From contig JASHTQ010000211.1 in assembly GCA_030040475.1 (NCBI GenBank), positions 1 to 17,710 of the forward strand: a DNA stretch of 17,710 nt, read 5' to 3'. The notes below the pieces were generated by a model that was given only the letters and a program-made list of their open reading frames with translations, did not search any database and was not told where the DNA came from. Source of the stretch: Streptosporangiaceae bacterium. GTDB taxonomy: Bacteria; Actinomycetota; Actinomycetes; Streptosporangiales; Streptosporangiaceae. Made by a program: the position numbers and the translations under genes. Position 1 is the first letter of the stretch. Each line of letters starts with the position of its first letter. Positions 1 to 15,795 of this stretch are shown here, piece by piece.

Positions 1-848
1 CGCTCGGGGAAGCCGCTGGCGACCACGGTCTCGGCGGTCACCTTCGGCGGCGCGGTCGCGCTCTCGGTCAGGCTCAGCCGGACCACATCGCCCTTGTAGA
101 CCTCCGTGCTGTCGCTGCTCTTCGGCGTGATGCCGAACAGGGTGTTGGCCACGAACAGCGTCGCCGAGCTGCCGTGGTCGCTGACCGTCTCATCCCACGG
201 CCCGTCCAGATAGGACCCGGAGATCGCGCCGGCCAGCTTGCCGGTCGGGGACAGCACGATCAGGCAGCCCGCCCCGGCCGTGTCGATGGTGCCGTTCGTG
301 CTCGGCAGGCTTCCGACGATCACCCACCCGGTCGTCAGCTGCACCATGGCCGTGGTCAGTCCCACCCCGCCGGGACAGCCGCTGATCGTCTGCGGCAGCT
401 GGGCGAACACGGTCAGGTTGCCGCCGGGGTGCAGGTCGACGATGGTCGTGCCGGTGCCCTGGTTGTTGGAGGCGTTGTTGAAGTTGTCCACCAGCACGTC
501 GCCCGCCTTGACGGAGCCGATCGTCTCGGTCACCGGCCAGATCGCGTAGGGGTTGATGTCCCCGTTGACCGGCGTGGTCGAGCCCAGCAGGGTAACCGCG
601 GTCTTGCCCGCCAGGAACGAGCCTGGCGCCGGCTTCAGCACGGTCGCGGCGGCCGCGTTCTCTTGCGCGTAGACGGTGTTCGCCGGAGCGCCCGCCTCGG
701 TGCCGTTCAGCCCGGCCGGCGTGACCGGGCCGGAACCGGATCCGCACGCGGCCACGGCGACGCACGCCGCGGCGGCCAGCCCCGGGGCAGCGATGATCCG
801 CCATCTCGGCAAGACGGCGTTCCTCCGCCCGGGCAAGTAGATACGCAT
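1..848 (-). CDS. Putative iron-regulated lipoprotein, possible beta-propeller (3' end cut by window)
   Basis: Open reading frame entering the window edge, so the C-terminus is missing; 282 codons are visible. The ATG at 848 follows a strong GAGGAGG Shine-Dalgarno 5 nt away. The N-terminus has basic residues (about 1-17), a hydrophobic stretch and a lipobox ending VAAC with Cys about residue 35, then a Gly/Ser linker. This is a type II signal peptide, so the protein should be exported and lipid-anchored. The mature part is rich in Gly, Thr, Val and Asn with repeated strand-like blocks (for example NLTVFAQLP, CLIVLSPTGKLAG, TLFVANTLFGI), which resembles NHL/six-bladed propeller proteins. I do not recognise a defined family, and it is not an obvious FepB-type siderophore-binding protein. 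Tandem IdeR boxes upstream imply induction under iron starvation. Function unknown; the lipoprotein call is firm and the fold call weak. Confidence 0.8.
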   Translation of the reverse strand, partial: MRIYLPGRRNAVLPRWRIIAAPGLAAAACVAVAACGSGSGPVTPAGLNGTEAGAPANTVYAQENAAAATVLKPAPGSFLAGKTAVTLLGSTTPVNGDINPYAIWPVTETIGSVKAGDVLVDNFNNASNNQGTGTTIVDLHPGGNLTVFAQLPQTISGCPGGVGLTTAMVQLTTGWVIVGSLPSTNGTIDTAGAGCLIVLSPTGKLAGAISGSYLDGPWDETVSDHGSSATLFVANTLFGITPKSSDSTEVYKGDVVRLSLTESATAPPKVTAETVVASGFPE

Positions 849-881
849 GCGCGGCCTCCTCGGCACCTGCCTTACGGCAAG

Positions 882-920
882 TATGGTTAGGCTTACTTTA
901 ATTAGGTAAGGCTAACCATA
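882..920 (-). promoter_or_regulatory. Tandem IdeR/DtxR boxes upstream of the lipoprotein gene
   Basis: Two 19-bp sites lie side by side: TTAGGTAAGGCTAACCATA (902-920, 16/19 to the DtxR/IdeR consensus TTAGGTTAGSCTAACCTAA) and TATGGTTAGGCTTACTTTA (882-900, 14/19). Their centres are 20 bp apart, about two helical turns, so two IdeR dimer pairs could bind the same DNA face. They end 33 bp before the ATG at 848, where the promoter should be, so iron-dependent repression is the simple reading. Confidence 0.85.
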
Positions 921-942
921 GGGCTGTCCGGACCTGGCCTGC

Positions 943-998
943 AAGGGCGTTGCGCCCTTTCGGTCAGCTGTCCTTGCCCGGGACTGGCCGCCGGGCAA
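943..998 (-). terminator. Paired hairpins after the siderophore operon
   Basis: Two perfect inverted repeats lie just past the operon's stop codon at 1015. TTGCCCGG (974-981) pairs with CCGGGCAA (991-998) across a 9-nt loop, and AAGGGCG (943-949) pairs with CGCCCTT (953-959) across a 3-nt loop. Neither has a T-run, which is common for actinobacterial terminators. Their place between the operon end and the next promoter (882-920) supports a terminator role. Confidence 0.55.
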
Positions 999-1014
999 TG
1001 ACAGGTCAGCGGGT

Positions 1015-1860
1015 TCAGGCGCCGTCATCGCCGCCGATGGCCCGCGACCCGGCCAGCCGGATCCGCGCGTAGCTGGCGGCCTGCTGGTCTCGCGGCTGGC
1101 CGGCCTGGCCGCGGTAGCGGTCGGGCGTGATCTCGCCGCGCTCGTAGGCGGCAATGGCGGCGGCCGCGGAATCGTCGTCGACCGGGCCGTAGTAGAGGCC
1201 GTGCGGCAGGATCACCAGGTTGGCCGCGTACCGGTGGCCGCCGACGTGCGTGGTCTCCCACACCCGGCCGGGGTGATGTGCGGCCAGGACGCGGGCGAGC
1301 GGCCCGCCCAGGCGCGCGCAGCAGACGTCGCGCCGGCCGTGCGCGCAGACAAGAAACAGCGGCGCCCCGGCCGGGCGGCCGAACGCTGGCGCCTGACCAT
1401 CCGCCAGGCCTGCCAGTTGGCCGGCTAGTTCGCCGGCGTCGGCCACGTTGCCGCGGCGCAGCCAAGGCGAGGAGCCCGCGGCCCAGCCGACGAACACCGA
1501 GGGAAGGCTGCCGTCGGAGCCCGCGGCGGCCCGCGGCCTGCGACGGCCCGGCCTGCGGATGAGCTGGACGCGGATGCCCAGGGCCTCGGCGCGCTGCGCC
1601 GCTTCCTTGAGCGGCGCGGGCAGCACCGCGTCAGCCGCCTGTTCGGGCCACGGCCCGGCGTGCTCGATGAGGAGCCAGGCCCGTGAGCCCTCAGGCGCGG
1701 TCGCCGCAGCGGGCTCGGTACCGTCGTGGCATCCCGCGCCGTGCGCGCATCGAGCTGCTGCTCCCGGTACCTGGCATGATCCGGCCGCCAGCCGGGCGGG
1801 GGCTGCGGCGCCCGCGTCCGGGCCGGCCGGGCGTGCCGTGCGCTGCCGCGATGTGGTCAT
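1015..1860 (-). CDS. Sucrase/ferredoxin-like (Apd1-type) [2Fe-2S] protein, probable ferric-siderophore reductase
   Basis: 281 aa, ATG at 1860 inside an ATGA overlap with the decarboxylase gene, so translation is probably coupled. The C-terminal half is a thioredoxin-like Suc_Fer domain. Cys172 and Cys180-Cys181 sit in FLVCAHGRRDVCCARLG, and His205 and His209 in THVGGHRYAANL. This matches the Apd1/Aim32 family, which binds a [2Fe-2S] cluster with two Cys and two His; the nine-residue Cys spacing (172 to 181) and the HxGGH pattern both fit. The N-terminal 50 residues are low-complexity, with extra Cys at 29, 38 and 44. As the last gene of a siderophore operon, its most likely job is cytoplasmic reduction of the ferric siderophore to release iron. 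Family call strong; substrate inferred from context. Confidence 0.85.
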   Translation of the reverse strand: MTTSRQRTARPAGPDAGAAAPARLAAGSCQVPGAAARCAHGAGCHDGTEPAAATAPEGSRAWLLIEHAGPWPEQAADAVLPAPLKEAAQRAEALGIRVQLIRRPGRRRPRAAAGSDGSLPSVFVGWAAGSSPWLRRGNVADAGELAGQLAGLADGQAPAFGRPAGAPLFLVCAHGRRDVCCARLGGPLARVLAAHHPGRVWETTHVGGHRYAANLVILPHGLYYGPVDDDSAAAAIAAYERGEITPDRYRGQAGQPRDQQAASYARIRLAGSRAIGGDDGA

Positions 1861-3134
1861 GAGGAGTCGCCTCCGTGGCGGGTCGCTGCGGGTACGCCGT
1901 CGGCACCGGGGTAACGCAGGTAGTGGAAACCGGGTGGCGGGTGCATGAGGAAGTCGTGCGCGGAGATGTTCCAGGCGTAGGCGCCCGCCAGGCCGAAGGC
2001 CACCAGGTCGCCGGCCCGGAGCCGGCTGATGTCGGCGCGCCGGGCCAGCACGTCCTTCGGCGTGCATAGCTGGCCGACGACCGTCACCGGCATCATGCGG
2101 GCTTCTGGCCTGGCCCAGGGAGCGGCCCAGGATGCGACGGGTATCACCGCGAACGGCTGGTCGTGTCCCTTGGCGGCGGGTGTGCGCAGGTGGTGGGTGC
2201 CGCCGGCGACCACGGCGAACGCCTCCCCATAGCTGCGCTTGACGTCCAGCACCCGGGTGACGTACCAGCCGCAGTAGGCGGCGACGGCGCGCCCGGGCTC
2301 GATCCGCAGCGTCTCCCCTGGCTGGGTCAGGCCGGCAAGCCCGTCCCCGTATCTGGGCCAGTCGAACGGGGTGTCCGGCCGCTGGTAGTCGACCGCCATT
2401 CCGCCGCCGAGGTTGAACTCCGGCCGCGGTACGCCGTGCCGGGCGCACCAGCGGCGGCCGAACGCCAGCACGCGGGCCGCGACCTCGAGCAGGGCATCAG
2501 CGTCCAGCCCGCTGGCCAGGTGCGCGTGCAGTCCGCGCAGGCGCAGCAGTCCCGATGCGCTGGTGTCTTCGGCTAGCAGGTCCGCGCAGTGGCCGAGCGC
2601 GGCCGGTTCCATGCCGAACGGCGCTGGCCTGCCGCCCATCGTGAGCACCTCGCCCGGGCCGCGGGCCGCCTGTCTTGCGGCCGCTCCGGCTGCGGGAAGG
2701 TTGGCCCTGAGCAGGACGTCCACCGGGCGCCCCGCGGCCCGGGCGGCCGCGGCAAGCAGGCGCAGCTCGTGCGGGCTCTCCACGTGGATGCTGGCTCCGG
2801 CGGCGAGCGCCGCGGACAGCTCGGGGCTGGTCTTGCCCGGCCCGCTGCAGGCGAGGCGGCAGCCGGGCACGGCCGCGGCGGCGTGCCGGAGTTCGCCGCC
2901 GGAGGAGACCTCGAGCCCGTCGACGTGCCGGGCGACGGCGCGCAGGACGGCCGGGTCGGGGTTGGCCTTGACCGCGTAGTACACCTGGACGGTGGCGGGC
3001 AGTGCCGCCCGGATGGCGGCCGTATGCGCGGCGAGCAGGTCCAGGTCGTAGACGTAGGCGGGTAGGCCGTCCGGGTCGCGGGACAGCCGCCGGGCCAGGC
3101 CGCGGACCAGGGGTGGCGCGGTGATGCCCGTCAT
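1857..3134 (-). CDS. PLP-dependent fold-III decarboxylase, PvsE/SbnH/LysA-like, siderophore biosynthesis
   Basis: 425 aa, ATG at 3134 in an ATGA overlap with the upstream NIS gene. It looks like a complete alanine-racemase-fold (group IV) decarboxylase. YAVKAN carries the Schiff-base Lys56, followed by SGGEL (78-82), SGPGKT (97-102), HAHLASG with His203/His205, the phosphate-binding NLGGGM loop (241-246), EPGR (279-282), the GQLCTPKD active-site Cys357 and AGAYA (383-387). The family includes diaminopimelate decarboxylase, BtrK and the siderophore enzymes PvsE (vibrioferrin) and SbnH (staphyloferrin B). Lying directly behind two NIS synthetases, it should decarboxylate a citryl-amino acid or other tethered intermediate, as proposed for the serine-derived ethanolamine of vibrioferrin, rather than free diaminopimelate. 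Enzyme class near certain; substrate inferred. Confidence 0.9.
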   Translation of the reverse strand: MTGITAPPLVRGLARRLSRDPDGLPAYVYDLDLLAAHTAAIRAALPATVQVYYAVKANPDPAVLRAVARHVDGLEVSSGGELRHAAAAVPGCRLACSGPGKTSPELSAALAAGASIHVESPHELRLLAAAARAAGRPVDVLLRANLPAAGAAARQAARGPGEVLTMGGRPAPFGMEPAALGHCADLLAEDTSASGLLRLRGLHAHLASGLDADALLEVAARVLAFGRRWCARHGVPRPEFNLGGGMAVDYQRPDTPFDWPRYGDGLAGLTQPGETLRIEPGRAVAAYCGWYVTRVLDVKRSYGEAFAVVAGGTHHLRTPAAKGHDQPFAVIPVASWAAPWARPEARMMPVTVVGQLCTPKDVLARRADISRLRAGDLVAFGLAGAYAWNISAHDFLMHPPPGFHYLRYPGADGVPAATRHGGDSS

Positions 3135-4807
3135 GCCGGGCCATCCACGCCGATCCGCTGGGCCGGGCGGCCGAACGGGCTGGGCGCGGGCACGTAGGCC
3201 GCCTGCCGGTCGGCTGCGCGCGCCCATCGCGCCCTCAGGTTCGCCTTGGCCGGCAGCGGTACCCCCGCCAGGATGGCCCGGAGCTGCGGCGGCGAGCCGT
3301 GCTCGCGCGCGAAACTGGCCAGGAGACGGCGTGCCCGGTCCCACAGGTCGGCTTCCGTCCGCTCTTCGCGTCCGGGGCAATGGTCGGCGATGGCCGCGGC
3401 TATCTCGTTCAGGTGGTTGACGAACAGGCAGTAGGCGATCCGGTTCCAGCCGCGTTCGGTGTCGTAGGCCAGGGCACGGGCGATGCCCGGGGCAAGTCCG
3501 GCTAGCAGGTCGTCGCGGCGCGGGGAGACGAGCTTGACGCCCTCCAGGTCGCGGAAGATCACCTGCCCGGGCTGGCCGTCGGCGCCCACGCCGACCAGGA
3601 CGTTCTGCAGATGCGGTTCGAGCACGACGCCGTGCCCGGACAGGGCGTACAGCACCGGGAGCGCGACCACGCGCAGGTAGGCCTCCCACCATGCCACCAG
3701 CCAGTCTGGGTCGCGGGCGCCGAACAGCCCCGGCGGCTCGCCGGGCACCGGGGGCCGCGGCTCGGCGAGGGACGCCGCCAGCAAGGGGGTGGTACCGGGG
3801 GCCAGGTGCCGGCGCAGGCCGTGCCGGACGATGACAGCCAGGCCCTCATAGGCCTTGCGGTCGGCCAGCGCCGCGGTCCGGTATCCCGGCTCGCCGAGCA
3901 GCGCGGTCCCCGGGAAGCGGCCGGCGACCTCCGCCAGGACAGGTGCCAGCCGCTCGGACAGCGCGACCGCCCCGGCCAGCTCGTACCAGGCGCTGGTCCG
4001 CACGCAGTTGGTGATCCGCACACTCAGGCTGAACTTGCAGAACACGTCGGCCGCCGGGTCGTAGACGGTGCGCACAGACGAGGTCGGCACTACGTCCCTG
4101 CGGCCCGGGCCGAGGTCGAGCAGGAGCCGGTCCCGGATGGCCCGCGCGAGCCATGGTCGGCGTCCCAGCAGCCGCAGTTGCCAGGGATGCGCCGGCAGCA
4201 GCCGGTAGCCGGGCGGCGGCACCGGGCCGCCGAGCGCGCCGAGCGCCGCGGTGTCGCCCTCGCAGGCCAGCACGTCGTCGCGGACGCCGAGGAAGCGCAG
4301 TGGGAACCGCGCCCCTGCCTCCGGGGCGTAGCGGAGCCACTCGCGCGGAGCGGACTGGCGGGCCTTGGGGGCGGGGTGGAACCTGTGCCCGGTGATCAGG
4401 GCCTGCTCGCTGGCCAGGTACCGGCGGATGTGAGAGTCGCCGGGCAGCCGGGAGGGCCGCCGGGCGGCCAGGATCGCGGTGAGTGCCGCATGACTGTCCC
4501 GTACCTGGCCCGGGAACTCCTCGTTTTCCGCGCCCGTGGCCAGGGCCAGCTCGTCGGCGATCAGGCTGGCCAGGCGTTCCCACCCGAGCGGGCGCCACCC
4601 GGCGCCGTGCCGGACCTGGACGTCGCCGGTCAGCCGCGGGCTGATTCCGGCCGAGGGGCGCCGGAGTGCGGCTCGCAGCAGCCGGCCCGACCTGGCCAGC
4701 CGGATCATCAGGTGGCCGCCGCTCTCCCAGGCCTGCTGCTCCGGGCCGGACACCTCGCGGACGAGGCAGTTCAGCAGGGCCTGGCTGGTCAGCGTGCCCG
4801 GGTTCAC
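3131..4807 (-). CDS. NIS siderophore synthetase, IucA/IucC family (PvsD-like position)
   Basis: 558 aa; the GTG start at 4807 shares a GTGA with the stop of the preceding synthetase gene. An in-frame upstream start at 5098 would read through that whole coding overlap and is rejected. Family motifs are intact: GHRFHPAPKAR (His144, Lys148, Arg150; nucleotide-binding HPxxK motif), AHPWQ (206-210), SSVRT (243-247) with Lys258 in FCKFSLSVR, LEPHLQN (396-402) and FRDLEG (418-423). NIS enzymes adenylate a carboxylate of citrate or a citryl intermediate and couple it to an amine or hydroxyl. By order in the operon this matches PvsD, proposed to join citrate and L-serine in vibrioferrin synthesis. The family is certain, while substrate and NIS subtype are not readable from the sequence alone. 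Confidence 0.92.
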   Translation of the reverse strand: MNPGTLTSQALLNCLVREVSGPEQQAWESGGHLMIRLARSGRLLRAALRRPSAGISPRLTGDVQVRHGAGWRPLGWERLASLIADELALATGAENEEFPGQVRDSHAALTAILAARRPSRLPGDSHIRRYLASEQALITGHRFHPAPKARQSAPREWLRYAPEAGARFPLRFLGVRDDVLACEGDTAALGALGGPVPPPGYRLLPAHPWQLRLLGRRPWLARAIRDRLLLDLGPGRRDVVPTSSVRTVYDPAADVFCKFSLSVRITNCVRTSAWYELAGAVALSERLAPVLAEVAGRFPGTALLGEPGYRTAALADRKAYEGLAVIVRHGLRRHLAPGTTPLLAASLAEPRPPVPGEPPGLFGARDPDWLVAWWEAYLRVVALPVLYALSGHGVVLEPHLQNVLVGVGADGQPGQVIFRDLEGVKLVSPRRDDLLAGLAPGIARALAYDTERGWNRIAYCLFVNHLNEIAAAIADHCPGREERTEADLWDRARRLLASFAREHGSPPQLRAILAGVPLPAKANLRARWARAADRQAAYVPAPSPFGRPAQRIGVDGPA

Positions 4808-6618
4808 CGGCCACCGCCGCGGATGCCCGTCTTGAGGTAGTTCGGCCCGCTGGTGGCGTAGAACTTGTTGATGTCGCGGGCGCCGCTGCGCGCCTTGGAC
4901 AGCAGTGTTCCCGCGGTCAGCATGGACTTGCCGGGCAGGCGCTCCGCGTCGAGCACCCGGGCCCGGAGCAGCGCGGCCGCGGGTGAGCCGGCATGCCGGC
5001 CGAGTGCGTCGTCCAGGGCATCGCGGATCAGGGCTAGCAGCCGCGGCAGCGGCGCGGCGCCCCGTTCGGCCAGCCCGAACGCGAGTGCGCCCGCGCACAG
5101 GTGCACGGTGATCGTGATGAACACGTCGGCGAGCGCGTCGTCCGACCCGGTGAGCAGGCGCGGGTCACCGAAGGCGGCCGGGCCGGGCGCGGCCGCGCCG
5201 AGCGCCGCGGCCAGCCGGGCATGGTTGATCATCGCGCCGTCGAAGTCCTTGACCAGCAGCCGGGGTGATGCCGACCCGGGCGGCCCGAAGACGAGCGCCG
5301 CGTTCTGCTGATGTGCCTCAAGGGCGATGCCGTAGCGGACGAACAGGTCGACCTGGGTGCCGAACAGCAGGCTGAGGTAGGCGGTCAGCAGCCGGGTCAG
5401 GTCACCGTCGTAGAACTGGCCGGCGAGTTCCTCGACGACTAGCGGCCGACCCTGGCAGTCTGCCTGCGGGCCGGGCGCGAGCAGTGCGGCGAGCGGGACG
5501 ATCCGGCACCGTTCCAGGCCTTCCGGCATACGCCGCAGCAGGTAGCCGAGGTAGGGATGGCCGGCGTGGGCGTAGCTGCCGTCGTCGGCGGCCAGCAGGG
5601 ACCCGGCCAGCAGGGATCCAGGCAGCAGGGATCCGGCCAGCAGGGACCCGGGCAGCGCGCCGCCGGAGGCTGCCCCGGCCACGATCGCGCCGATCAGGGC
5701 GCCGTCGGCCAGCGTGCCTGGCGCTATCGAGCGGCGGTTGCGCAGGCCCAGCGTGCTGGTGGGCAGCGGCAGCTTGAGATGGCAGCCGGGATCGCCGTCT
5801 ACCGCCACGGTCCTAGTCGACAGCGTCGGGATCACTCGCAGGTGCGGTTGCGGGGCGGTCACCGCCGTGTTAGCCAGCCCGCTGGCGGCCAGGGCCCGGC
5901 CGAGTTCCGTGCGCGCGGTGAGCGGGTGAACCGGCAGCAGGGCATGGGTCGCGGTCAGGGACGCAGGCAGGCCTACCTCGGTCGGGGCGGGCCACCACGG
6001 CGGGCGCGCCGGGCCGGCCCTGGTCAGCGCCGCCTCCGGCACTGCCACCCAGCGGAGTTCGAACCCGGGCAGGTACTCCGGCGCGTACCGCAGCGAGTCC
6101 TCGTCGCTGAAGCCCAGCCTGCACGCCGAGGCCGGGTAGACCGGGTGCGGCATCGCGGCGGCCAGCGCGTCGTAGCGGCACTGCCCGCCCGGCCCGAGCC
6201 ACATGGCGGGCCGGGTCTGGGCGTGGCGGGCCAGCCGGGCGCGGACCGCGGGCAGGTGGCGGTCCCGCAGCCGGAGCGTGGCAAGTGCCTGACGGCACTC
6301 CTCGGCCAGCGCAGCGGCTCCCTCGCGGTCCCGCGGGTCCGACATCACCGCCAGGGCGCGACGGAGGTCGTCGATGGCCAGTGTCGGCGCGGGGCGGCGG
6401 ATGCGCAGGTCGGCGAGGAACCCGTCCGGCTCGAGCGGGAGCACGAGGCCGGGCTTGCCGCAGTCGGCCGGCAGGTGCAGCGCGGTCCCGCCCGGGCGGG
6501 ACCGCACCCTGCCGGACAGGCTCGCGTAGTCCTCCCGCAGCAGCGCGTCGATGACCGCGGCAACGAGCCCCCGTTCGGCTGCATCCGGGTGGCCGTCACG
6601 GGCCGACCCGGCGGTCAC
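4804..6618 (-). CDS. NIS siderophore synthetase, IucA/IucC family (PvsB-like position), with internal repeat
   Basis: 604 aa; GTG start at 6618 within a GTGA overlap with the ATP-grasp gene. Core motifs are seen at LLPVHPL (227-233), PTLSTRT (264-270) with Lys282, EAHQQN (434-439) and KDFDG (457-461). Two oddities stand out. The HPxxPxxKxRxG motif reads HPVYPASACRLG (158-169), with Ala165 where the usual Lys lies. Residues 324-343 are four GSLL[AP] pentapeptides encoded by a 15-bp tandem repeat, in what should be a surface loop. The operon position equals pvsB, whose product is thought to be a type B NIS enzyme handling 2-oxoglutarate; a changed substrate pocket would suit that, but this is inference. 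The C-terminus is otherwise full length and the frame unbroken, so I expect an active enzyme. Confidence 0.9.
   Translation of the reverse strand: MTAGSARDGHPDAAERGLVAAVIDALLREDYASLSGRVRSRPGGTALHLPADCGKPGLVLPLEPDGFLADLRIRRPAPTLAIDDLRRALAVMSDPRDREGAAALAEECRQALATLRLRDRHLPAVRARLARHAQTRPAMWLGPGGQCRYDALAAAMPHPVYPASACRLGFSDEDSLRYAPEYLPGFELRWVAVPEAALTRAGPARPPWWPAPTEVGLPASLTATHALLPVHPLTARTELGRALAASGLANTAVTAPQPHLRVIPTLSTRTVAVDGDPGCHLKLPLPTSTLGLRNRRSIAPGTLADGALIGAIVAGAASGGALPGSLLAGSLLPGSLLAGSLLAADDGSYAHAGHPYLGYLLRRMPEGLERCRIVPLAALLAPGPQADCQGRPLVVEELAGQFYDGDLTRLLTAYLSLLFGTQVDLFVRYGIALEAHQQNAALVFGPPGSASPRLLVKDFDGAMINHARLAAALGAAAPGPAAFGDPRLLTGSDDALADVFITITVHLCAGALAFGLAERGAAPLPRLLALIRDALDDALGRHAGSPAAALLRARVLDAERLPGKSMLTAGTLLSKARSGARDINKFYATSGPNYLKTGIRGGGR
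5593..5652. repeat. 15-bp tandem repeat, 4 copies, in frame inside an NIS synthetase gene
   Basis: Four contiguous copies of CAGCAGGGAYCCRGS start at 5593, 5608, 5623 and 5638. They differ only at the Y/R/S positions, and the block ends at CAGCGCG. On the coding (minus) strand each copy encodes a GSLL[AP] pentapeptide. The unit is a multiple of three, so copy-number change would keep the frame. Confidence 0.95.
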
Positions 6619-7892
6619 GGCTGGGGCTCCGCGCGGATCTCCCAGCAGGCCCGTTCGCGGAAGGCCGCGATACCGCGTGCCACGGCCGCCTGGCCCGGCC
6701 CCATCGCGCTGATGACCCCCAGGTAGTCACGGTTGGCGTGGGTCAGCGTGATGCGCTCACCGGGATGGCGGAGCGGCCGGTAGCCGAGCACGACGCCGGG
6801 CTCGGCGCTGGGCTGGGCGCCTCCCGGCGGGGCGGCGGCGAGCACGCCGGGCCGGTCGGCGACCACGTAGTCGGCGATCGCGCAGCTCAGCGGGCCGGGT
6901 GGGGCCGGTGGCGGGCCAGGCGGCAGAGCCTGCCCGAGGTACACCTGCAGGGTGAGCTCGAACAGGTCCACGCCCAGGAGATCGGAGAGCAGGAAGTCGC
7001 AGTCGTCGCCGATCAGCCGGTCGTTCACCTCTACCAGCCGTGCCCCGCCGTCCGCGTCGGCCACGAACTCGGTATGACAGGCGCCGAAACAGACACCCAG
7101 ATCGCCGAGGGCACCCAGGACGTGCCCGGCGGCCGCGGCGGGAACCGGGGCGTCCCAGGTGAGCCGCTCCTCGATGAAGAACGGCGGGGCGGACACCTGC
7201 GTCCGGAAGCCGCCCAGCACCCAGGTGGTCACGCCGTCGCCGAGCGTCTCAAGCGTCCGAAGCGCGCCGGGCAGGTACTGCTCCGCGACGAGCCGCTCGC
7301 CGGGACGGCGGGAGAAGATCTCCCTGCAGCGGCTGGCTAGGTCGGCCGGATCACTGGCAAGCACGACGTCCTCGCTGGCCACTCCCCCGGCTGGCTTGAG
7401 GACCACCGGGTAAGGCAGGCTGTGCACCGGGTGCGCGGTGGCGGACGTGATCTCGGCGGCCACCACATCCTCGGCGCCGGTCTGGCGGAGATGGCGGCGC
7501 ATCAGCGCCTTGTCCTTGGCCCGCAGGGCCGAGCGCCAGTCCTTGCCCGGCAGGCCGAAGTACTCCGCCGCCAGCGCGGCCTGCACCTGGAGATGGTCGG
7601 AGTTGGACAAGACCGCGTCTGGCGTCCCCAGCGACGCCATCTGCGCGATGAGCGTGCGGACGTCCCAGGGATCGCACCTCACCAGCCGCGCCGACGCCCG
7701 ATCCGTCCCGCGGGCCGCCGGGCGGACAGCCGGACCCGGGCAGCCCTCCGTCTCCACTTCGGCAAGGGCGCACTCGTGCGCTTCCGGCTGGTCTGTCAGC
7801 ACGCTGACGTCAAGGCCCAGCCGCGCCGCTGCCGGAAGGAAACCGAAGGTCACCGAATCAGTCGGTTTGGAGGCGATCAGGTGAAGCCGCAC
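6615..7892 (-). CDS. ATP-grasp ligase, first gene of the siderophore operon (PvsA-like)
   Basis: About 425 aa. I prefer the GTG at 7892, because GGGAG (7898-7902) then sits 5 nt upstream; the GTG at 7898 is also open but would abut that Shine-Dalgarno. From the 7892 start, the pre-ATP-grasp region is about 1-115. ATP-grasp features follow: RAKDKALMRRHL (Lys126, Lys128), PVVLKPAGG (Lys166), VAEQYLPG, and the metal-binding ExNxR in VEVNDRLIG (Glu288, Asn290, Arg292). Such enzymes form an acyl phosphate and couple it to an amine, as in D-Ala-D-Ala and L-amino-acid ligases. In vibrioferrin clusters PvsA is the ATP-grasp enzyme, linked to adding alanine. It lies first behind an IdeR box and its stop overlaps the next gene by 4 nt. 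Fold secure; substrate inferred. Confidence 0.88.
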   Translation of the reverse strand: MRLHLIASKPTDSVTFGFLPAAARLGLDVSVLTDQPEAHECALAEVETEGCPGPAVRPAARGTDRASARLVRCDPWDVRTLIAQMASLGTPDAVLSNSDHLQVQAALAAEYFGLPGKDWRSALRAKDKALMRRHLRQTGAEDVVAAEITSATAHPVHSLPYPVVLKPAGGVASEDVVLASDPADLASRCREIFSRRPGERLVAEQYLPGALRTLETLGDGVTTWVLGGFRTQVSAPPFFIEERLTWDAPVPAAAAGHVLGALGDLGVCFGACHTEFVADADGGARLVEVNDRLIGDDCDFLLSDLLGVDLFELTLQVYLGQALPPGPPPAPPGPLSCAIADYVVADRPGVLAAAPPGGAQPSAEPGVVLGYRPLRHPGERITLTHANRDYLGVISAMGPGQAAVARGIAAFRERACWEIRAEPQP

Positions 7893-7904
7893 GGTCACTC
7901 CCGT

Positions 7905-7923
7905 TTAGGTAAGCCTAACCTAA
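7905..7923 (-). promoter_or_regulatory. IdeR/DtxR box controlling the siderophore operon
   Basis: TTAGGTAAGCCTAACCTAA matches the DtxR/IdeR consensus at 18 of 19 positions. It ends 2 nt before the Shine-Dalgarno (7898-7902) of the ATP-grasp gene. Bound IdeR would therefore cover the transcription start and block the whole five-gene operon when iron is plentiful. Confidence 0.93.
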
Positions 7924-8030
7924 CTCGGTGATCATAGCGGGCGCGTAGGTCTCCCGCCGCGCTTCGGCTACAAGGAGCAACCGCGCCGGGCCGGCTGGCA
8001 CGGCACGCGGTGGAGGGGCGGACCGGGGTG

Positions 8031-8744
8031 TCAGGCGGTCGCTGCCGTCATATCCCCGGCTGCGACGACGAAGATGTGGGCGGCAGCGGCATCGCCGATC
8101 TCGACGCTTGCCGGCCCGTTGCCGATGCGGACACCGGCGTCTGCGCGGGCGATCGTCACCGTGGCATTCGGCTGGAGCCCGGCGTCGCGCAGCCGGGTCA
8201 GCAGGGCCGTGTCGGACTGAAGCGACTCGCCGATGCGGCGCACGACCACGCTGCCGGTCTCGGCGGGTATCTCGGTCAGCGGCACCACGACGCCGGGAAG
8301 CTCCCCGTTCCCTTCCTCGCCCAGCTCCGCGAGCCCGGGGATCGGGTTTCCGTACGGCGACTGCGTGGGATGACCGAGGACATCGAGCACCCGGCGTTCC
8401 ACCGTGTCGCTCATCACGTGCTCCCACCGGCACGCCTCGTCGTGGACCATGTGCCACTCCAGGCCGAGGACGCTGACCAGCAGGCATTCGGCCAGGCGGT
8501 GCTTGCGCATGACGCGGATGGCCGCGGACCGGCCGGCCGGGGTGAGCTCGATCTGCCGGTCGCCGGTCAGGGTGAGCAGGCCGTCACGTTCCATCCGGGC
8601 AATCGTCTGCGACACCGTCGGGGGGGTGTGCCCGAGCCGCTCGGCGATACGGGCACGCCGTGGGACGACGCCTTCTTCCTCGAACTCGAGCACCGAGCGC
8701 AGATACATCTCTGCGGTGTCGATGAGGTCGTCCTGATGATTCAC
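8031..8744 (-). CDS. ideR: Iron-dependent transcriptional repressor, DtxR/IdeR family
   Basis: 237 aa, close to DtxR (226) and IdeR (230). I chose the GTG at 8744: GGGGA lies 6 nt upstream and the product begins with the family's DLIDTAEMYL. A TTG at 8780 would only add a non-conserved extension. The winged-helix domain spans about 1-75 (RARIAERLG, PTVSQTIARMERDG). The metal/dimerisation domain includes MRKHRLAE and HDEACRWEHVMSD. Metal ligands equivalent to DtxR Met10, His79, Glu83, His98, Cys102, Glu105 and His106 are all present (here Met13, His82, Glu86, His101, Cys105, Glu108, His109). A C-terminal SH3/FeoA-like domain fills about 150-237. It should bind Fe(II) and repress from the TTAGGTTAG-type boxes found around it. 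The intact metal sites favour iron sensing over an MntR-type role. Confidence 0.95.
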   Translation of the reverse strand: MNHQDDLIDTAEMYLRSVLEFEEEGVVPRRARIAERLGHTPPTVSQTIARMERDGLLTLTGDRQIELTPAGRSAAIRVMRKHRLAECLLVSVLGLEWHMVHDEACRWEHVMSDTVERRVLDVLGHPTQSPYGNPIPGLAELGEEGNGELPGVVVPLTEIPAETGSVVVRRIGESLQSDTALLTRLRDAGLQPNATVTIARADAGVRIGNGPASVEIGDAAAAHIFVVAAGDMTAATA

Positions 8745-8823
8745 GTGCCATCCCCGGCCCTGTCCCGGCCGTTGCGTCAAATGCGTGCGGCTGGCGGCCG
8801 TCTGGGTGAAGAACCGCCGATGT

Positions 8824-8842
8824 CCAGCTTAGCCTCGCCTGG
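8824..8842. promoter_or_regulatory. Degenerate IdeR-like palindrome upstream of ideR
   Basis: CCAGCTTAGCCTCGCCTGG keeps the central TTAGCCT and both outer half-site cores but matches the consensus at only 12 of 19 positions. It is about 80 bp before the ideR start codon, so weak autoregulation is possible. The rest of the 234-bp gap (8745-8978) between ideR and the stop of the DUF2470 gene shows no other recognisable signal. Confidence 0.3.
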
Positions 8843-8978
8843 GAACCCGCCGACAGCATGAATCGCGCAGCCCCGGGGCGCCGAATGGCGGCACGCGAAC
8901 GTGCCGCTGAACGAGCGCGGCGTGGGTCGGTGCCTGCGGCTCCTCCGCTTTCCTGCATCGGCAGGTCACGGCAGGGGA

Positions 8979-9686
8979 CTACTGGCCGGCGGCGGGCCGG
9001 GTGTGGTGCTGGCCGGGTCCGGACTGACAGCGGCACGTCAGCGCGGTGCGGATGGAGGCCGGGACCTGCTGCAGCGATGCGACCGGGCCGTCCGGAAAGG
9101 AAAGCCGGACCCCGGCGGTCCCGTCCGTGGTGAGCACGAGGAGTTCCAGGCCGTAGCGGTCCAGGCCGCAGGGGATCACCCAGTCGGCCTGGTCCATGCC
9201 GTGGGCGCGTACGCAGCCGATGAGGTCGGCCATGTGCCCGCGCTCGAGGTGTCGCAGCACTCCGGGTGCCACCCGCCATAGCGGGTCCGGCGCCGCGATC
9301 CGGTACTCCTCGACCGGGATGGGCACGGACACGGCGCCGTCGAGCCGAACCGACCGCACGGCCACCGTGCAGGCGGTGATCCCGGCCGCACGGTCCTGGG
9401 CCAGCGGCCGGCATGTCCCGGTGAGGCGGAGGGCCGAAAATGGCACCCGCGCCGGCACGCACACGGTCACGGGTCCGGGGGCCGAGGCCAGCCACTGCTC
9501 CGCCAGCGTCCCGGTGGCGGGCAGCAGCAACGGGCTGCCGTCCCGCGCGGCCCGGACGGGAACCGGCCCGGCGGCGGCCGGGACGCCCGCCGAGCCCGCT
9601 TCGCTGACGGTGGCGGCCGCGGCGCGGGAAAGAGCCGTGCGGGCCAGTTCCGGCAGGGAGGGCCCGGGGAGCACATCGAAGTTCAT
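8979..9686 (-). CDS. DUF2470 domain-containing protein, iron-regulated
   Basis: 235 aa; ATG at 9686 with AAGGA just upstream. The central part (about 73-140: VTVCVPARVPFSALRLTG to VPIPVEEYRIAAPDPL) and the C-terminal part (HMADLIGCVRAHG, 151-163; CGLDRYGLELLVL, 173-185; VRLSFP) match actinobacterial DUF2470 proteins. DUF2470 is also found at the end of HugZ-type haem-degrading and other FMN-binding split-barrel proteins, so a haem or iron role is possible but not shown. The tail has CRCQSGPGQHH, a possible metal-binding cluster. A near-perfect IdeR box sits in its promoter. It is cytoplasmic, with no signal peptide or membrane segment. Molecular function unknown. Confidence 0.85.
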   Translation of the reverse strand: MNFDVLPGPSLPELARTALSRAAAATVSEAGSAGVPAAAGPVPVRAARDGSPLLLPATGTLAEQWLASAPGPVTVCVPARVPFSALRLTGTCRPLAQDRAAGITACTVAVRSVRLDGAVSVPIPVEEYRIAAPDPLWRVAPGVLRHLERGHMADLIGCVRAHGMDQADWVIPCGLDRYGLELLVLTTDGTAGVRLSFPDGPVASLQQVPASIRTALTCRCQSGPGQHHTRPAAGQ

Positions 9687-9696
9687 GATCCTTATT

Positions 9697-9724
9697 AGAT
9701 TAGGTAAGGCTAACCTAAGTCAAC
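9697..9724 (-). promoter_or_regulatory. Promoter with overlapping IdeR box, DUF2470 gene
   Basis: Reading the minus strand, TTGACT (9724-9719) is a good -35 and TAATCT (9702-9697) a plausible -10, with a 16-nt spacer. The IdeR box TTAGGTAAGGCTAACCTAA (9700-9718, 18/19) fills the spacer and touches the -10. This is a direct promoter-occlusion layout. The remaining gap up to the next gene's stop (9725-9842) shows nothing else. Confidence 0.88.
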
Positions 9725-9842
9725 GGTCCTCGTGGAGATGGGCGGCCGGCCCGCCGCAGGCGCAGGGTAAGACGGGCGAGACCGGGCAGGCAGCAGGCGT
9801 CGTAACGGCTCGGTGCCGGTCCCGGCCGGCTGGGCGTGACGG

Positions 9843-10598
9843 TCAGGCGACCGCAGGACGTCGCAGGGAGTGCCTGACTGCCGCGGCGCATGCAGCAGCG
9901 GCGCGCGGGCTTGCCCCGTACCGGGGCGAGAGCGCGAGGACGGCGTAGCGGCCGACATGCTCAACCGAGGCCGCCCACCGCGCCGGGGTATCCATCGTGA
10001 GGTCGGCCTCGGCGGCCGACCGGGCGGTCCAGGCCACGGCGAGCGCCGCCCATCGGCGCCGGTCGGTCGCGCGCGAAGACAGCTGGGCGCCCAGCGCCCG
10101 GCTCGCGGTAACCGAAGCCAGGCGCCGCCGGGGAGCGAACGCGAGCAGCCGGCGCGCGCGTGCCGCATCCTGCGCAGCCAGCTCTGCCGCCTGGTCTGCC
10201 ACGGCCACGGCTGCCTCGAAGGCAGCCGCCACGTCCGCCGGTTCTCTCGCGCCACGGGCCCACGCCTGCGCTGTGCTGATCGCCGCGCCGATGCGGGGAT
10301 CAGCCATGCGAGCAGCCCGGACCGCGGCATCGGCCACGGTCGCGGCACAGCGGACGACCTCGCGCCGCTCCTGCTCCGTCCGCGCCATGCGCGCCGCGGC
10401 CCACAGCAGCCAATCCGGGCGCGGGCACACGTCCCAGCACGCCCCGAAGTCGGCGAACGGGGCGGCCCAGCCGGTGAACGGCCACGGTGCCGAGAGCTGC
10501 GCGAGGCGGGATTGCAAGCCTGGCTGGCTTGAACCGTCGGCGGCGGCCACGGGCGGCGTTCCCTGCGCGGGATGAGCCCAGGACCATCGCAGAGACAT
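9843..10598 (-). CDS. Ala-rich helical protein of unknown function, iron-regulated
   Basis: 251 aa; ATG at 10598 with GGAG only 2 nt upstream, so the ribosome site is unusually close. The protein is mostly predicted helix, with long Ala-rich runs (about 85-150 and 185-245) and one distinctive block, GACWDVCPRPDWLLWAAARM (52-71). Cys54, Cys58 and Cys84 are the only Cys before residue 200. It vaguely recalls the 'putative immunity protein' (Imm-5-like) helical family, but I cannot confirm that and assign no function. No signal peptide or convincing membrane segment is seen. An IdeR box covers its promoter, which shares the TTGACT layout of the DUF2470 gene, so both should be switched on together in low iron. 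Confidence 0.75.
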   Translation of the reverse strand: MSLRWSWAHPAQGTPPVAAADGSSQPGLQSRLAQLSAPWPFTGWAAPFADFGACWDVCPRPDWLLWAAARMARTEQERREVVRCAATVADAAVRAARMADPRIGAAISTAQAWARGAREPADVAAAFEAAVAVADQAAELAAQDAARARRLLAFAPRRRLASVTASRALGAQLSSRATDRRRWAALAVAWTARSAAEADLTMDTPARWAASVEHVGRYAVLALSPRYGASPRAAAACAAAVRHSLRRPAVA

Positions 10599-10606
10599 GT
10601 CTCCGT

Positions 10607-10634
10607 TTTATTAGGCAAGCCTAAGCTAAGTCAA
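10607..10634 (-). promoter_or_regulatory. Promoter with overlapping IdeR box, Ala-rich gene
   Basis: On the minus strand TTGACT (10634-10629) is followed by the box TTAGGCAAGCCTAAGCTAA (10611-10629, 16/19) and an AT-rich TAATAA -10 candidate at about 10613-10608. The AAGTCAACG next to the box (plus strand) is identical to that beside the DUF2470 box at 9717-9725, suggesting a common design or a duplicated promoter. Confidence 0.8.
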
Positions 10635-10778
10635 CGTCTCTGGGCCTGATCTTCCGCCGTCTGCCCTGCGGCACAGGTGGTGGCCGTACCCCGGCGCATG
10701 CTGGATCGCCGGCCCGGAGAGTCTGCAACGTCGAGGGGTCACCGATCAGCGGACGCCAGGGTTCCGCCAACCGGAAAC

Positions 10779-10797
10779 TTAGGTTAGCCTTACCAAT
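10779..10797 (+). promoter_or_regulatory. IdeR box upstream of bfd
   Basis: TTAGGTTAGCCTTACCAAT, 16 of 19 consensus positions, 27 bp before the bfd ATG. It faces away from the box at 10611-10629 across a 149-bp divergent intergenic region that shows no other clear signal. At this distance it should overlap the core promoter, favouring repression in high iron, although IdeR activates some storage genes from more distal sites in mycobacteria. Confidence 0.82.
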
Positions 10798-10824
10798 GTA
10801 TCGACCGAGAGGAGCCGCGAGGGA

Positions 10825-11019
10825 ATGTTCGCGTGTATCTGCTGGGCTGTGACATGCGACGAAGTCGGCGCGGTGCTCGACGAAGGCGCGGCGACGGTCG
10901 AGGCGGTGGCTGAGGCCACGGGCGCCGGGACCGGCTGCGGAACCTGCCGGGAGCGGATCGCAGCCATGATCGGCGAACGCGGCCAGCAGTGCCCGGTCCC
11001 GGCGCTGCGTGTCGCCTGA
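10825..11019 (+). CDS. bfd: Bacterioferritin-associated ferredoxin
   Basis: 64 aa, typical of Bfd. The four [2Fe-2S] ligands Cys4, Cys6, Cys38 and Cys41 fall at the same positions as in E. coli Bfd (MFACICWAVT and GTGCGTC). ATG at 10825; AGGAG at 10810-10814 and GAGGGA right before the start are both possible ribosome sites. Bfd docks on bacterioferritin and passes electrons to its haem, so stored Fe(III) leaves as Fe(II). It lies 31 bp before bfr on the same strand and behind an IdeR box, as expected for a gene that releases stored iron during starvation. Confidence 0.93.
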   Translation: MFACICWAVTCDEVGAVLDEGAATVEAVAEATGAGTGCGTCRERIAAMIGERGQQCPVPALRVA

Positions 11020-11044
11020 CCAGGCGGATGACAATCGCTAGGCT
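11016..11044 (+). promoter_or_regulatory. Candidate promoter for a leaderless bfr transcript
   Basis: CTGACC (11016-11021), a 17-nt spacer and TAGGCT (11039-11044) form a plausible housekeeping promoter that overlaps the end of bfd. The expected start point, 6-7 nt past the -10, is the A of the bfr ATG at 11051. No Shine-Dalgarno precedes that ATG, which suits a leaderless mRNA. GGCTGACCTGA also resembles the right half of an IdeR box (12/19 over 11033-11051). Confidence 0.4.
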
Positions 11045-11050
11045 GACCTG

Positions 11051-11530
11051 ATGCGCGGAGACGACCACGTCCTGGAATTGCTCAACGAGCAGCTCACTGC
11101 CGAATTGACCGCCATCAACCAGTACTTCTTGCACGCCAAGATGCAGCAGAACTTCGGCTGGGTGAAACTCGCCAGACATACTCGCGCGGAGTCCGTCGAC
11201 GAGATGCGGCACGCCGAGGTGCTCACCGACCGGATCCTGTTCCTGGACGGGCTGCCGAACTACCAGCGACTGTTCCCGCTGCGCATCGGCCAGACGATCA
11301 CCCAGATGCTCGAGGCGGACATGGCGGTGGAGACCGAGGCGGTGGACCGGCTCCGCCGGGGAATCGAGTACATGCGCGGCGTCGCCGATGTCACCAGCGC
11401 GAACCTTTTCGAGGCCATCCTCGCCGACGAGGAGCAGCACATCGACTACCTCGAGACTCAGCTCGGACTTATCGAGCAGCTTGGCGAGCAGCTCTACCTG
11501 GCGCAACTGGTCGAGCAGCCCGACAGCTGA
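11051..11530 (+). CDS. bfr: Bacterioferritin
   Basis: 159 aa, the usual length. Ferroxidase-centre residues Glu18, Glu51, His54, Glu94, Glu127 and His130 are present at E. coli Bfr numbering, and the haem ligand Met52 is present (DEMRHAEV). It should assemble into a 24-mer, oxidise Fe(II) and store it as a ferric mineral; inter-subunit haem works with Bfd for release. It lies 31 bp after bfd, probably partly co-transcribed, and may also have its own leaderless promoter. The 111 bp downstream (11531-11641) contain only small inverted repeats (for example CGTCG/CGACG near 11608) and no clear terminator. Confidence 0.96.
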   Translation: MRGDDHVLELLNEQLTAELTAINQYFLHAKMQQNFGWVKLARHTRAESVDEMRHAEVLTDRILFLDGLPNYQRLFPLRIGQTITQMLEADMAVETEAVDRLRRGIEYMRGVADVTSANLFEAILADEEQHIDYLETQLGLIEQLGEQLYLAQLVEQPDS

Positions 11531-11641
11531 AGGTAACGCCAAGTCCGCGGCTGCCTTCGGGGTCTAGGGCCATCATGTGCGTGTGCTGACCATCACCTGG
11601 TGGCCCGTCGTGCGACGAGGCGTTCCGTCAGGACTGGCGAT

Positions 11642-12050
11642 TTACACCGCTGCGAAGGCCTGGATGGCTCGGTAGTCGTCGGAGGTCAGGGCGACACAGG
11701 GGTCGAAGCCGGCCGTCCGGCAGGCCTGCCGGACGATGCGGAACCAGGCGCTGCCGGCCCGGCCGCCGACCCAGGTCTCCTCGGCCAGGGCCGGCAGGTC
11801 CAGCGCGGCGCCGCTGCGGGCCAGCCGGTGCCCGCGGGGCAGGACGGCCTGGAAGGCGTCGTCGAACAGGTAGACGTGGCCAGCGCCATGGGAAAGCTGC
11901 CGAACCGGAGCCGGCCGACCCGCTGGCCGGCGATCTCGGCCAGGTCCTGCTCGGCGCTGTCGAGGCGGGCGCTGATGGCCGTGCCGTGCGCGGTGGCGTC
12001 GGCGCCGTCTTCCTTCTCGGTGAAGACGCGGAGGATGCTGGTCCCAGGGA
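11642..12050 (-). pseudogene. Remnant of a LysR-type transcriptional regulator
   Basis: Two LysR pieces lie in different minus-strand frames. The first (about 12050 to 11880) carries the linker-helix and domain start, with ISARLDSAEQDLAEIAG and VGRLRFGSFPMALA. The second (about 11880 to 11642) carries effector-domain sequence: VYLFDDAFQAVLPRGHRLA, then ALTSDDYRAIQAFAAV and a TAA stop. Against a normal LysR protein, about 65-70 residues are missing at the frame junction, the N-terminal helix-turn-helix is gone and the C-terminal GLGV-type end is cut off. It is non-functional. Its broken N-terminal side abuts the start of the plus-strand STAND pseudogene. Confidence 0.75.
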
Positions 12051-12074
12051 GTCTGCCTGGAGAGGTAAGCCGCG

Positions 12075-14015: not shown

Positions 14016-14112
14016 GGCGACCGATCGCGTCCGGCCGCCGGCGCGCCAGCCCGCTAGAGTTGGCGGACATCTTGCCGCCCCGTGGCGGGCGGCCCGAGGC
14101 GAGGGAACGATC

Positions 14113-15198
14113 ATGTGCCCGATGGCCGGAGACAGTGCGGCGCCCTCCGTTGCTCCGGGGTCCCGGCCCTCCCATCACTCCGGGCCGGGCTTTGTGGCCA
14201 ACCCCAAGGCGCCCGACTTCGAACTGGACGAGCCGCTGAGAGGCGCCGCGGCGCGGTGGCTCAACCTTGTTCCCGCCGGGCACCGGCGTGACGCCAGGGC
14301 ACCGGCGGAGGATGTCCTTCAGACGCTGCGAGAACACGCGCGCAGCTGCCCCGATCATCCGGTTGCCGCCCTGTGGGCGGCCCACCGCCACCTGGAGGAC
14401 CCGGCGCCGGCGGTCCGGATCGCGGCGCTCGTGCTGGCCTCGGAGGCGCTGTGGTGGCTCGGGCATTTCGAGGATGCGCGCAGGGCCGCGCAGGCGGCGG
14501 CGGACGCCGACCCGGCTTCGGCCCAGGCGCTGTGGCGTCTCGCGGTCGCGCTGTACCGCGAGGGCCGGTTCGAGGAGGCCGGTCAACGCCTCGATGACCT
14601 GCTGAAACTGGCCGACCGGTTCGCTCCCGGGTGGGCGCTGCGGGGCCAGGTCAAGGTCTGGCTCGACGCGGACAACCCTGCCGCGGGGCGGGCCGACTTC
14701 GCCTCAGCGGCGACGCTGACCGCCGGCCAGGGCACCTGGGTGGTGCCCTACCGGATGGCGGGTGCCGACTTCCAGGCGGCGGCCGATGCCGAGATCAGGG
14801 TGCACGACGCCGAGACGGGCGGCTCGGCCGGCGGCGTTGTCGACGTGGCGCTGCTGCCGGACAAGTCGCGGGTGCAGCGGGGCGTGGATCCCGATCGCCG
14901 GTGGCACTTGGAAGGGCCGAGCACGGGGGGCGGCGATTCGGACAGCTTGTTCGGCAGCCTGGGCGGGGACTTCGCCGCCGGGGCACGCTCGCGGGTCGAC
15001 TTCGGGGCGAGGTTCGTTCTTTACCAGCGGAACATCGAGAACCTCTGCAAGGACAGGGCGACCCTCCGCGAGGAGATCCGCAAGTCGGTGGCCGAGCTTT
15101 TCGACGCGGCTCTGGAGTCCCGCGCGGAGGTCGCGATCAAGGGTGCGCCCGAGGAGCACGCCGAGGGGGCGGACATCCCGGGTGACGAGGACCGCTAG
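14113..15198 (+). CDS. TPR protein with zincin-like C-terminus lacking HExxH
   Basis: 361 aa; ATG at 14113 with GAGGGA 6 nt upstream; a TAGAGT -10 candidate lies at 14055-14060. Residues about 80-205 form TPR-type helical pairs (HPVAALWAAHRHLE, LVLASEALWWLGHFEDARRAA, ALWRLAVALYREGRFEEA, FAPGWALRGQVKVWL). Residues 215-335 resemble the minimal zincin metallopeptidase family (PF06262-like): LLPDKSRVQRGVDPD, then FVLYQRNIENLCKDRATLREEIRKSV. Where that family has its zinc-binding HExxH, this protein reads AELFDAALESR. It is therefore probably a non-catalytic relative. The Asp/Glu-rich tail follows. No signal peptide. The gene is intact, unlike its upstream neighbour. TPR call is good; the zincin relation is from pattern memory and moderate. 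Confidence 0.75.
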   Translation: MCPMAGDSAAPSVAPGSRPSHHSGPGFVANPKAPDFELDEPLRGAAARWLNLVPAGHRRDARAPAEDVLQTLREHARSCPDHPVAALWAAHRHLEDPAPAVRIAALVLASEALWWLGHFEDARRAAQAAADADPASAQALWRLAVALYREGRFEEAGQRLDDLLKLADRFAPGWALRGQVKVWLDADNPAAGRADFASAATLTAGQGTWVVPYRMAGADFQAAADAEIRVHDAETGGSAGGVVDVALLPDKSRVQRGVDPDRRWHLEGPSTGGGDSDSLFGSLGGDFAAGARSRVDFGARFVLYQRNIENLCKDRATLREEIRKSVAELFDAALESRAEVAIKGAPEEHAEGADIPGDEDR

Positions 15199-15506: not shown

Positions 15507-15666
15507 CGCCTGCAACTGCCCGGCGGGGTCGGTGCTGAAACCGGTCTTTTACTCCGTTGACGGCAGCAGCGGTCGGCTGGACTGGTACCACGGCTCGTTC
15601 GGCTGAAAAATACGGCGGCCGGGTGGTGCGGGAGATCAGCGCGGCTGACGGGGTCGATGATGGCCA

Positions 15667-15704: not shown

Positions 15705-15795
15705 TCCCCCGAATCATCACCGCGGCCGACGCGGGCGGGCGCGGCGGGCGGCCAGAATTGGCTGGGGCAGCTGTGAAGAGAAGAGGGCCATTTTG

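Follow-up and report, generated by a model that had tools for sequence, protein, structure and literature searches.

The window analysed here, a stretch of 17,710 nucleotides (nt) from Streptosporangiaceae bacterium (contig JASHTQ010000211.1, positions 1 to 17,710), carries a five-gene operon on its minus strand (7898-1015). Very probably, this operon is repressed by IdeR and serves to make a citrate-based carboxylate siderophore of the vibrioferrin structural class, its exporter-less form being usual in many filamentous actinomycetes. Its five genes, which include two synthetases of the NRPS-independent siderophore (NIS) type and a pyridoxal phosphate (PLP) decarboxylase, lie behind a predicted operator and a regulator gene as follows.

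8744-8031, minus strand: DtxR/IdeR regulator gene, directly upstream of the operon (NF053665 and Pfam Fe_dep_repr_C)
7905-7923: predicted IdeR/DtxR-type operator, the perfect palindrome TTAGGTAAGCCTAACCTAA, ending 6 nt before the GTG start of the ATP-grasp gene
7898-6615, minus strand: ATP-grasp ligase, PvsA type (427 amino acids, GTG start)
6618-4804, minus strand: NIS1, in the PvsB position (604 amino acids; PF04183 and PF06276)
4807-3131, minus strand: NIS2, PvsD/AcsD type (558 amino acids from the GTG at 4807)
3134-1857, minus strand: fold-III PLP decarboxylase, PvsE/SbnH type (425 amino acids from the ATG at 3134)
1860-1015, minus strand: Suc_Fer/Apd1-like protein, the final gene of the operon (281 amino acids from the ATG at 1860; PF06999, 8.4e-20)

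A 4-nt stop/start overlap is found at each junction of the operon. A preliminary description of this DNA had reported an ATP-grasp gene, two NIS genes and a fold-III decarboxylase gene, in this order behind an IdeR box, with an Apd1-like gene added at the end and the exporter gene absent. The observation is confirmed, because five overlapping genes, a perfect box and a DtxR gene were found in the window. The absence of the exporter also held: a tblastn search with three PvsC-position proteins of the major facilitator superfamily (MFS) found no MFS gene in the window, and Pfam reported no MFS family among the 30 window open reading frames (ORFs) scanned. No TonB-dependent receptor was recognised in the window either. 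The sequence itself shows the four enzymes and their orthology to the pvsA-B-D-E set, as well as the overlaps within the operon and the IdeR box.

Regarding the first enzyme, the Pfam ATP-grasp_4 score of the 427-residue protein was 20.1 bits, under the 27-bit cut-off. Despite this, its homology identifies it clearly as an ATP-grasp. A tblastn search against the plasmid collection matched 54 records, of which 12 spanned 80% or more of the query, and 96-99% of the protein aligned to ATP-grasp genes of these twelve: Streptomyces, two Embleya, Nonomuraea, two Rhodococcus, two Cupriavidus necator H16, Pantoea soli, two Vibrio and Piscirickettsia salmonis. The identity was 39% over 99% of the length to Cupriavidus H16, 38% to the Pantoea gene, which is annotated PvsA, and 33% to the two Vibrio genes. 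The order ATP-grasp, NIS1, NIS2, decarboxylase was common to all 11 plasmid loci examined, one of the two H16 records being left out.

Both synthetases matched Pfam IucA_IucC (NIS1 3.6e-20, NIS2 1.3e-47) as well as FhuF. In a PDB search with NIS2, AcsD was the best match (1.8e-68, 235 bits), followed by IucA (1.6e-30, 110 bits), and DesD reached at best 2.6e-7 (33 bits). The AcsD positions S279, R281, K293, R305, H444 and D464, which we take to have substrate-binding roles, are kept in NIS2 in the alignment. The decarboxylase matched Pfam Orn_Arg_deC_N (1.3e-20), and its best PDB match was 6knh (4.1e-71), presumably SbnH, versus 1.9e-26 for the top diaminopimelate decarboxylase outside the 6kn group. 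It scored 166.5 bits against TIGR01048 (LysA; cut-off 297.9), and its best NCBIfam match, TIGR03099 at 216.8 bits, was likewise below its cut-off.

For the comparisons with other genomes, GTDB genome contigs were scanned with an NIS1 alignment and the best 80 of at least 428 confirmed relatives were taken as loci; with 11 plasmid loci, these give 91 pvs-type loci. The NIS tree had 71 rows, drawn from 25 of the 91 loci (row L041_NIS1, which duplicates L041_NIS2 by mis-extraction, is to be ignored). The window NIS1 fell in a 25-row clade (SH-aLRT 100, a starred branch) with the NIS1 of actinomycete loci and the PvsB-position NIS of L007-L010. NIS2 fell in a 30-row set (98, also starred) together with the NIS2 of the same loci, including four proteobacterial PvsD-position rows. 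This set also holds an AcsD-like Sodalis protein and a single NIS from both L012 and L013; because the AcsD-like row falls among the PvsD-position rows, NIS2 alone does not separate the pvs type from the achromobactin type. Outside both groups stood the RhbF-like rows, the second and third NIS of the achromobactin-type locus L125 and two NIS of the staphyloferrin B-type locus L126, and the nearest outsiders to the NIS2 set were RhbC-like rows and the remaining NIS of L126. L012 and L013 are Streptomyces plasmid loci with NIS pairs, one NIS being close to the window NIS2 (53% and 44%) and no ATP-grasp or NIS1 match being present; in L012 the pair is followed by a PvsE-like decarboxylase gene.

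The decarboxylase tree comprised 38 rows, from 23 of the 91 loci and including four LysA rows. A 100/99 branch parts the window decarboxylase and all PvsE-position rows from the four LysA rows, in a tree for which the program warned of long branches that meet and whose PvsE side holds a long, doubtful row (L148). Two rows labelled TIGR01048 on the PvsE side, L147 and L149, sit at those genomes' own pvs loci. A LysA identity was rejected on the sub-cut-off TIGR01048 score, the PDB ranking and the tree. The preliminary description had held that a grouping of both NIS proteins with hydroxamate types, or of the decarboxylase with biosynthetic LysA, would speak against its assignment. Since neither NIS groups with the RhbF-like rows and the decarboxylase, nearest to 6knh in the PDB, lies across the 100/99 branch from LysA, a pvsA-B-D-E type is supported, and the four-gene set is orthologous in sequence and order to such clusters.

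The box at 7905-7923 has 0 mismatches to the consensus used, TTAGGTWAGSCTWACCTAA, with 0.00 such boxes expected in shuffles. Five boxes with at most 3 mismatches were found in the window versus none in 200 shuffles. The DtxR gene scored 300.9 bits against NF053665 (cut-off 290) and 1.4e-28 for Fe_dep_repr_C. With a predicted operator at its promoter, the operon qualifies as a putative member of the IdeR regulon. Of the 89 related loci with enough upstream sequence, 61 had a box matching at 16 or more of 19 positions in the 250 nt ahead of the ATP-grasp gene; among random stretches the figure was 31 of 1780, and true boxes may be present in some of these. In the five proteobacterial loci, the 280 nt around the ATP-grasp start held no IdeR-like box that good.

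All 80 kept genome loci are from actinomycetes and have an ATP-grasp gene beside NIS1. Four of them (L015, L036, L039 and L077) end before the decarboxylase position; in the remaining 76, NIS2 was always present, and the decarboxylase gene followed it on the same strand in 71. An MFS gene lies between the NIS genes in 28 of the 80 loci and is absent in 50, the other two (L015 and L077) ending too soon after NIS1. The missing exporter is therefore the usual form (50 of the 78 judgeable genome loci), and we rejected it as a peculiarity of the window. A siderophore-binding-protein gene stands ahead of the ATP-grasp gene in 24 of the 28 MFS loci. In all 52 loci with no MFS match (the 50 plus L015 and L077) the ATP-grasp gene is preceded by an IdeR-like box matching at 16 or more of 19 positions and not by a binding-protein gene. 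In 25 of the 28 MFS loci a box was found somewhere within 6 kb upstream, a count that has no control set, the three others having under 2 kb of upstream sequence. Among the plasmid loci, an MFS gene separates the NIS genes in both Rhodococcus and all five proteobacterial loci and is absent in the other four actinomycete loci. On a quick 92-row NIS1 tree, MFS presence needs at least 13 changes, 9 of them forced by starred branches, with L015 and L077 scored absent. By its sequence, the window operon typifies the form that has an IdeR box and no exporter gene. No shared transporter was found among the 19 flanking genes scanned at four MFS-less loci (L019, L020, L042 and L056), which include NUDIX (L020, L042), M20 peptidase (L042, L056), UvrD and a single EamA gene (both L056).

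Of the 297 genomes sampled in one actinomycete family (that of G001), 195 have an NIS1 relative (E<=1e-3, so that some are distant NIS); in another family (that of G003) the figure is 69 of 150 (E<=1e-40). In an even phylum-wide sample, 3 of 396 genomes, the centre genome included, had a relative at E<=1e-40; thus, the operon set is common in some actinomycete families but not phylum-wide. The preliminary description had named no characterised actinobacterial example; a view of the set as unusual for an actinobacterium was not borne out in those two families. Vibrioferrin-class carboxylate siderophores are usually discussed for marine and plant-associated proteobacteria, and these loci show that filamentous actinomycetes commonly have the enzyme set of the class, behind iron boxes. 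A gene of the aldolase/citrate lyase family (compare SbnG) lies beside eight of the loci (L005, L006, L007, L008, L035, L054, L059 and L063) and was not matched in the window.

The Apd1-like gene at the operon end proved to be real and had a match in none of the 91 related loci. With the window genes for Suc_Fer, DtxR and the downstream lipoprotein-like protein, no match of at least 40 bits was obtained in 123 loci, namely the 91 of pvs type (mostly including flanks), two others with NIS genes and 30 short ones. Among the 91 related loci, the Suc_Fer gene and the neighbouring dtxR gene are particular to the window. Among the matches listed, P0008 is 98% identical to the window NIS1, the next-closest relatives (P0009-P0127) reach up to 67%, and P0008 is presumably from the same species as the window. 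Two contigs longer than 10 kb (17866 and 17270 nt) were equal in size across the NIS1 and Suc_Fer match lists, with 0.031 expected; 42 NIS1 and 29 Suc_Fer contigs of that length were compared, from 120 matches listed each, and 1 of 2000 trials reached two. Over the whole lists there were three exact size matches (the third at 2871 nt, between short contigs) versus 0.5 expected. This suggests, though indirectly, that the Suc_Fer gene remains linked to the operon in the kin of the window.

The window Suc_Fer protein was aligned with 23 relatives, a selection from the 120 listed of 933 found, and C172, C180, C181, H205 and H209 are invariant in all 24 rows. Yeast Apd1 is described as having a 2Cys2His [2Fe-2S] pocket (PMC11126956), and the invariant set is compatible with such a pocket. 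In the N-terminal half, C38, H40, C44 and H45 (C-x-H-x3-C-H; window 1749-1726, minus strand) are nearly invariant in Suc_Fer-like proteins, and residues 38-45 could possibly form a second metal site apart from the 2Cys2His site.

We propose that under iron shortage IdeR would leave its box and the operon would be expressed. NIS2 would then adenylate citrate and couple it with an amino acid, which by analogy with AcsD is most likely L-serine, and the decarboxylase would remove CO2 to give an O-citryl-ethanolamine-type half. An amino acid plus a dicarboxylic or oxo acid, in the vibrioferrin case alanine plus 2-oxoglutarate, would be built into the second half by the ATP-grasp enzyme, and NIS1 would couple the two halves. 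Export and uptake would go through genes outside the operon, and the Suc_Fer protein would most likely act as a [2Fe-2S] electron carrier aiding iron release from the returned ferric siderophore. This route follows the chemistry of AcsD, SbnH and PvsD/PvsE.

Several points weigh against reading the operon in this way. A review proposes other roles for the Pvs enzymes, in which free serine is the substrate of PvsE and the ester is formed by PvsA (PMC5577590). The PDB relatives of NIS1 are weak, the best being IucC at 4.5e-6, and the type-A family of NIS2 also serves hydroxamate siderophores, as IucA is its second PDB match and RhbC-like rows are the nearest outsiders in the tree. The pvs reference loci were identified by annotation and gene order rather than by the Pvs sequences of V. 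parahaemolyticus. Among the 76 loci judged for it, the decarboxylase gene is on the other strand in L049 and had no match in L050, L065, L071 and L076, so that these five may make a product without decarboxylation or encode the decarboxylase elsewhere. Neither an importer nor an MFS exporter was found within the window. The almost identical NIS1 and Suc_Fer copies (P0008 and P0128) are listed on contigs of 13074 and 3144 nt respectively, and because the sizes differ this pair does not show linkage. We also found no actinomycete product of such a gene set in the open-access papers searched, subscription journals lying mostly outside that search. Finally, NIS1 differs between the lineages at residue 436 (LEAHQQN), opposite EPH444LQN of AcsD, a position placed by motif, as only NIS2 was tool-aligned to AcsD. 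It is His in 86 of 92 rows and Asn in all five proteobacterial rows (L007-L011); among actinomycetes it is His in 86 of 87, the remaining row (L055) giving no motif. Because of this difference, the product need not be vibrioferrin.

The alternative closest to the preferred reading is that the operon makes vibrioferrin itself, from citrate, ethanolamine, alanine and 2-oxoglutarate. The identical four biosynthetic genes in identical order argue for it, and vibrioferrin has been tentatively detected in acid soil, near the detection limit, in a report that gives Azotobacter cultures as the earlier known soil source (PMC7527475). That earlier source, the His/Asn difference in NIS1 and the identity of NIS1 and NIS2 to their proteobacterial counterparts, just about 28-37%, speak against it, and we regard vibrioferrin itself as a real but lesser possibility. 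Slightly more tentative, and rather doubtful as a whole, is the idea that the actinomycete pvsABDE product, in view of the changed NIS1 active site, is a citrate-carboxylate other than vibrioferrin, exported by an unlinked system, to which the lineage of the window adds its own Apd1-type bis-His/Cys [2Fe-2S] ferric-siderophore reductase. If true, this would assign Apd1-type proteins a function in the use of siderophores. Should the product be a weak citrate chelator, it would be of importance for the exchange of iron in soil.

A product of the staphyloferrin B or achromobactin type is improbable. The nearest PDB entries, AcsD for NIS2 and 6knh for the decarboxylase, would fit it, but the clusters of Sodalis (L125) and Pseudonocardia (L126) each have three NIS genes, with no ATP-grasp gene annotated in the stretch covered, while the window has two NIS genes and an ATP-grasp gene; moreover, sbnA and sbnB were not recognised among the window ORFs scanned and NIS1 is not grouped with the second and third NIS of L125 and L126. 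An operon for a hydroxamate siderophore of the DesD or aerobactin kind is more improbable still. Both NIS proteins do belong to the IucA/IucC superfamily, with NIS2 matching IucA at 110 bits, but neither an N-hydroxylase nor an N-acyltransferase was recognised among the ORFs scanned, and a hydroxamate identity of the NIS proteins was rejected on the PDB scores of NIS2 (at best 33 bits to DesD versus 235 to AcsD) and on the NIS tree, where neither joins the RhbF-like rows. The citrate-based carboxylate siderophore of the vibrioferrin class remains the reading that we prefer.

Regarding the surroundings of the operon, the five IdeR-like boxes lie within 10 kb around the dtxR gene and form an iron-regulon island, which includes the following further features.

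902-920, 7905-7923, 9700-9718, 10611-10629 and 10779-10797: IdeR-like boxes with at most 3 mismatches
902-920: box downstream of the operon, before the lipoprotein-like gene (2 mismatches)
8979-9686, minus strand: DUF2470-like gene adjoining an IdeR-like box (22.3 bits, cut-off 22)
9843-10598, minus strand: gene with no Pfam or NCBIfam match, adjoining an IdeR-like box
11051-11530, plus strand: bacterioferritin gene (TIGR00754, 214.6 bits, cut-off 125.55)

The boxes at 10611 and 10779 sit between the gene at 9843-10598 and the bacterioferritin gene. The lipoprotein-like gene (848-1, minus strand, cut by the window start) lies behind the 902-920 box and has no Pfam family and a sub-cut-off NCBIfam match; it could encode an iron-related surface protein. 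An ATP-binding cassette (ABC) ATPase and ABC-2 permease pair at 15793-17691 (plus strand) has no IdeR-like box, and for this reason it is only a weak candidate for the siderophore exporter.

Among known systems, the preliminary description had pointed to proteobacterial clusters with the same set and an MFS gene between the NIS genes, and this arrangement was seen in all five proteobacterial loci. Collinear pvs-type clusters occur on plasmids of Rhodococcus, Cupriavidus, Pantoea, Vibrio and Piscirickettsia. The pvsABCDE clusters of Vibrio fortis (L009), Vibrio sp. (L011) and P. salmonis (L010), where genes of this set have been named pvsA-E (PMC5199080), and the pvs-type cluster of C. necator pHG1 (L007) have four orthologous genes in the same order as the window. 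They differ in that an MFS gene separates their NIS genes and TonB-dependent receptors adjoin the cluster; they also have Asn instead of the window-type His in NIS1 and show no box of 16/19 or more near the ATP-grasp start. In lacking the MFS gene pvsC, the window departs from a vibrioferrin cluster proper. The achromobactin enzymes AcsD/AcsE and the staphyloferrin B enzyme SbnH resemble those of the window, AcsD and 6knh being the nearest solved structures, but the two clusters of that kind examined (L125 and L126) differ by their three NIS genes and lack of an annotated ATP-grasp gene. L126, on the Pseudonocardia plasmid pBCI2-1, is a staphyloferrin B-type cluster in an actinomycete (sbnA, three NIS, MFS and aldolase genes), near a metal-dependent regulator gene.

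Streptosporangiaceae, Actinomadura and Streptomyces have pvsABDE operons that, like the window, lack the MFS gene (50 of the 80 genome loci, e.g. L020, L042 and L032) and hold the same genes with a box directly before the ATP-grasp gene; their loci differ in having no match to the Suc_Fer or dtxR of the window. An antiSMASH region in another Streptomyces is listed as 'vibrioferrin 18%' (PMC7385001). The avsABCD genes of S. avermitilis (SAVERM7320-7323) were called a 'vibrioferrin-like polyhydroxycarboxylate siderophore' system in 2022, and the transcription of avsA-D was enhanced overall in a pteF mutant (PMC9394381). According to the gene descriptions given there, this is likewise an actinomycete set of four genes, three for a 'siderophore synthetase component' and then a 'diaminopimelate decarboxylase', with no MFS gene listed. 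The comparison is one of descriptions only, which list no Suc_Fer or dtxR and do not state whether avsA is an ATP-grasp or a NIS gene. The kind of operon found here is, going by the wording used for avsABCD, already noted in print, and the window adds to it a lineage-specific Suc_Fer gene.

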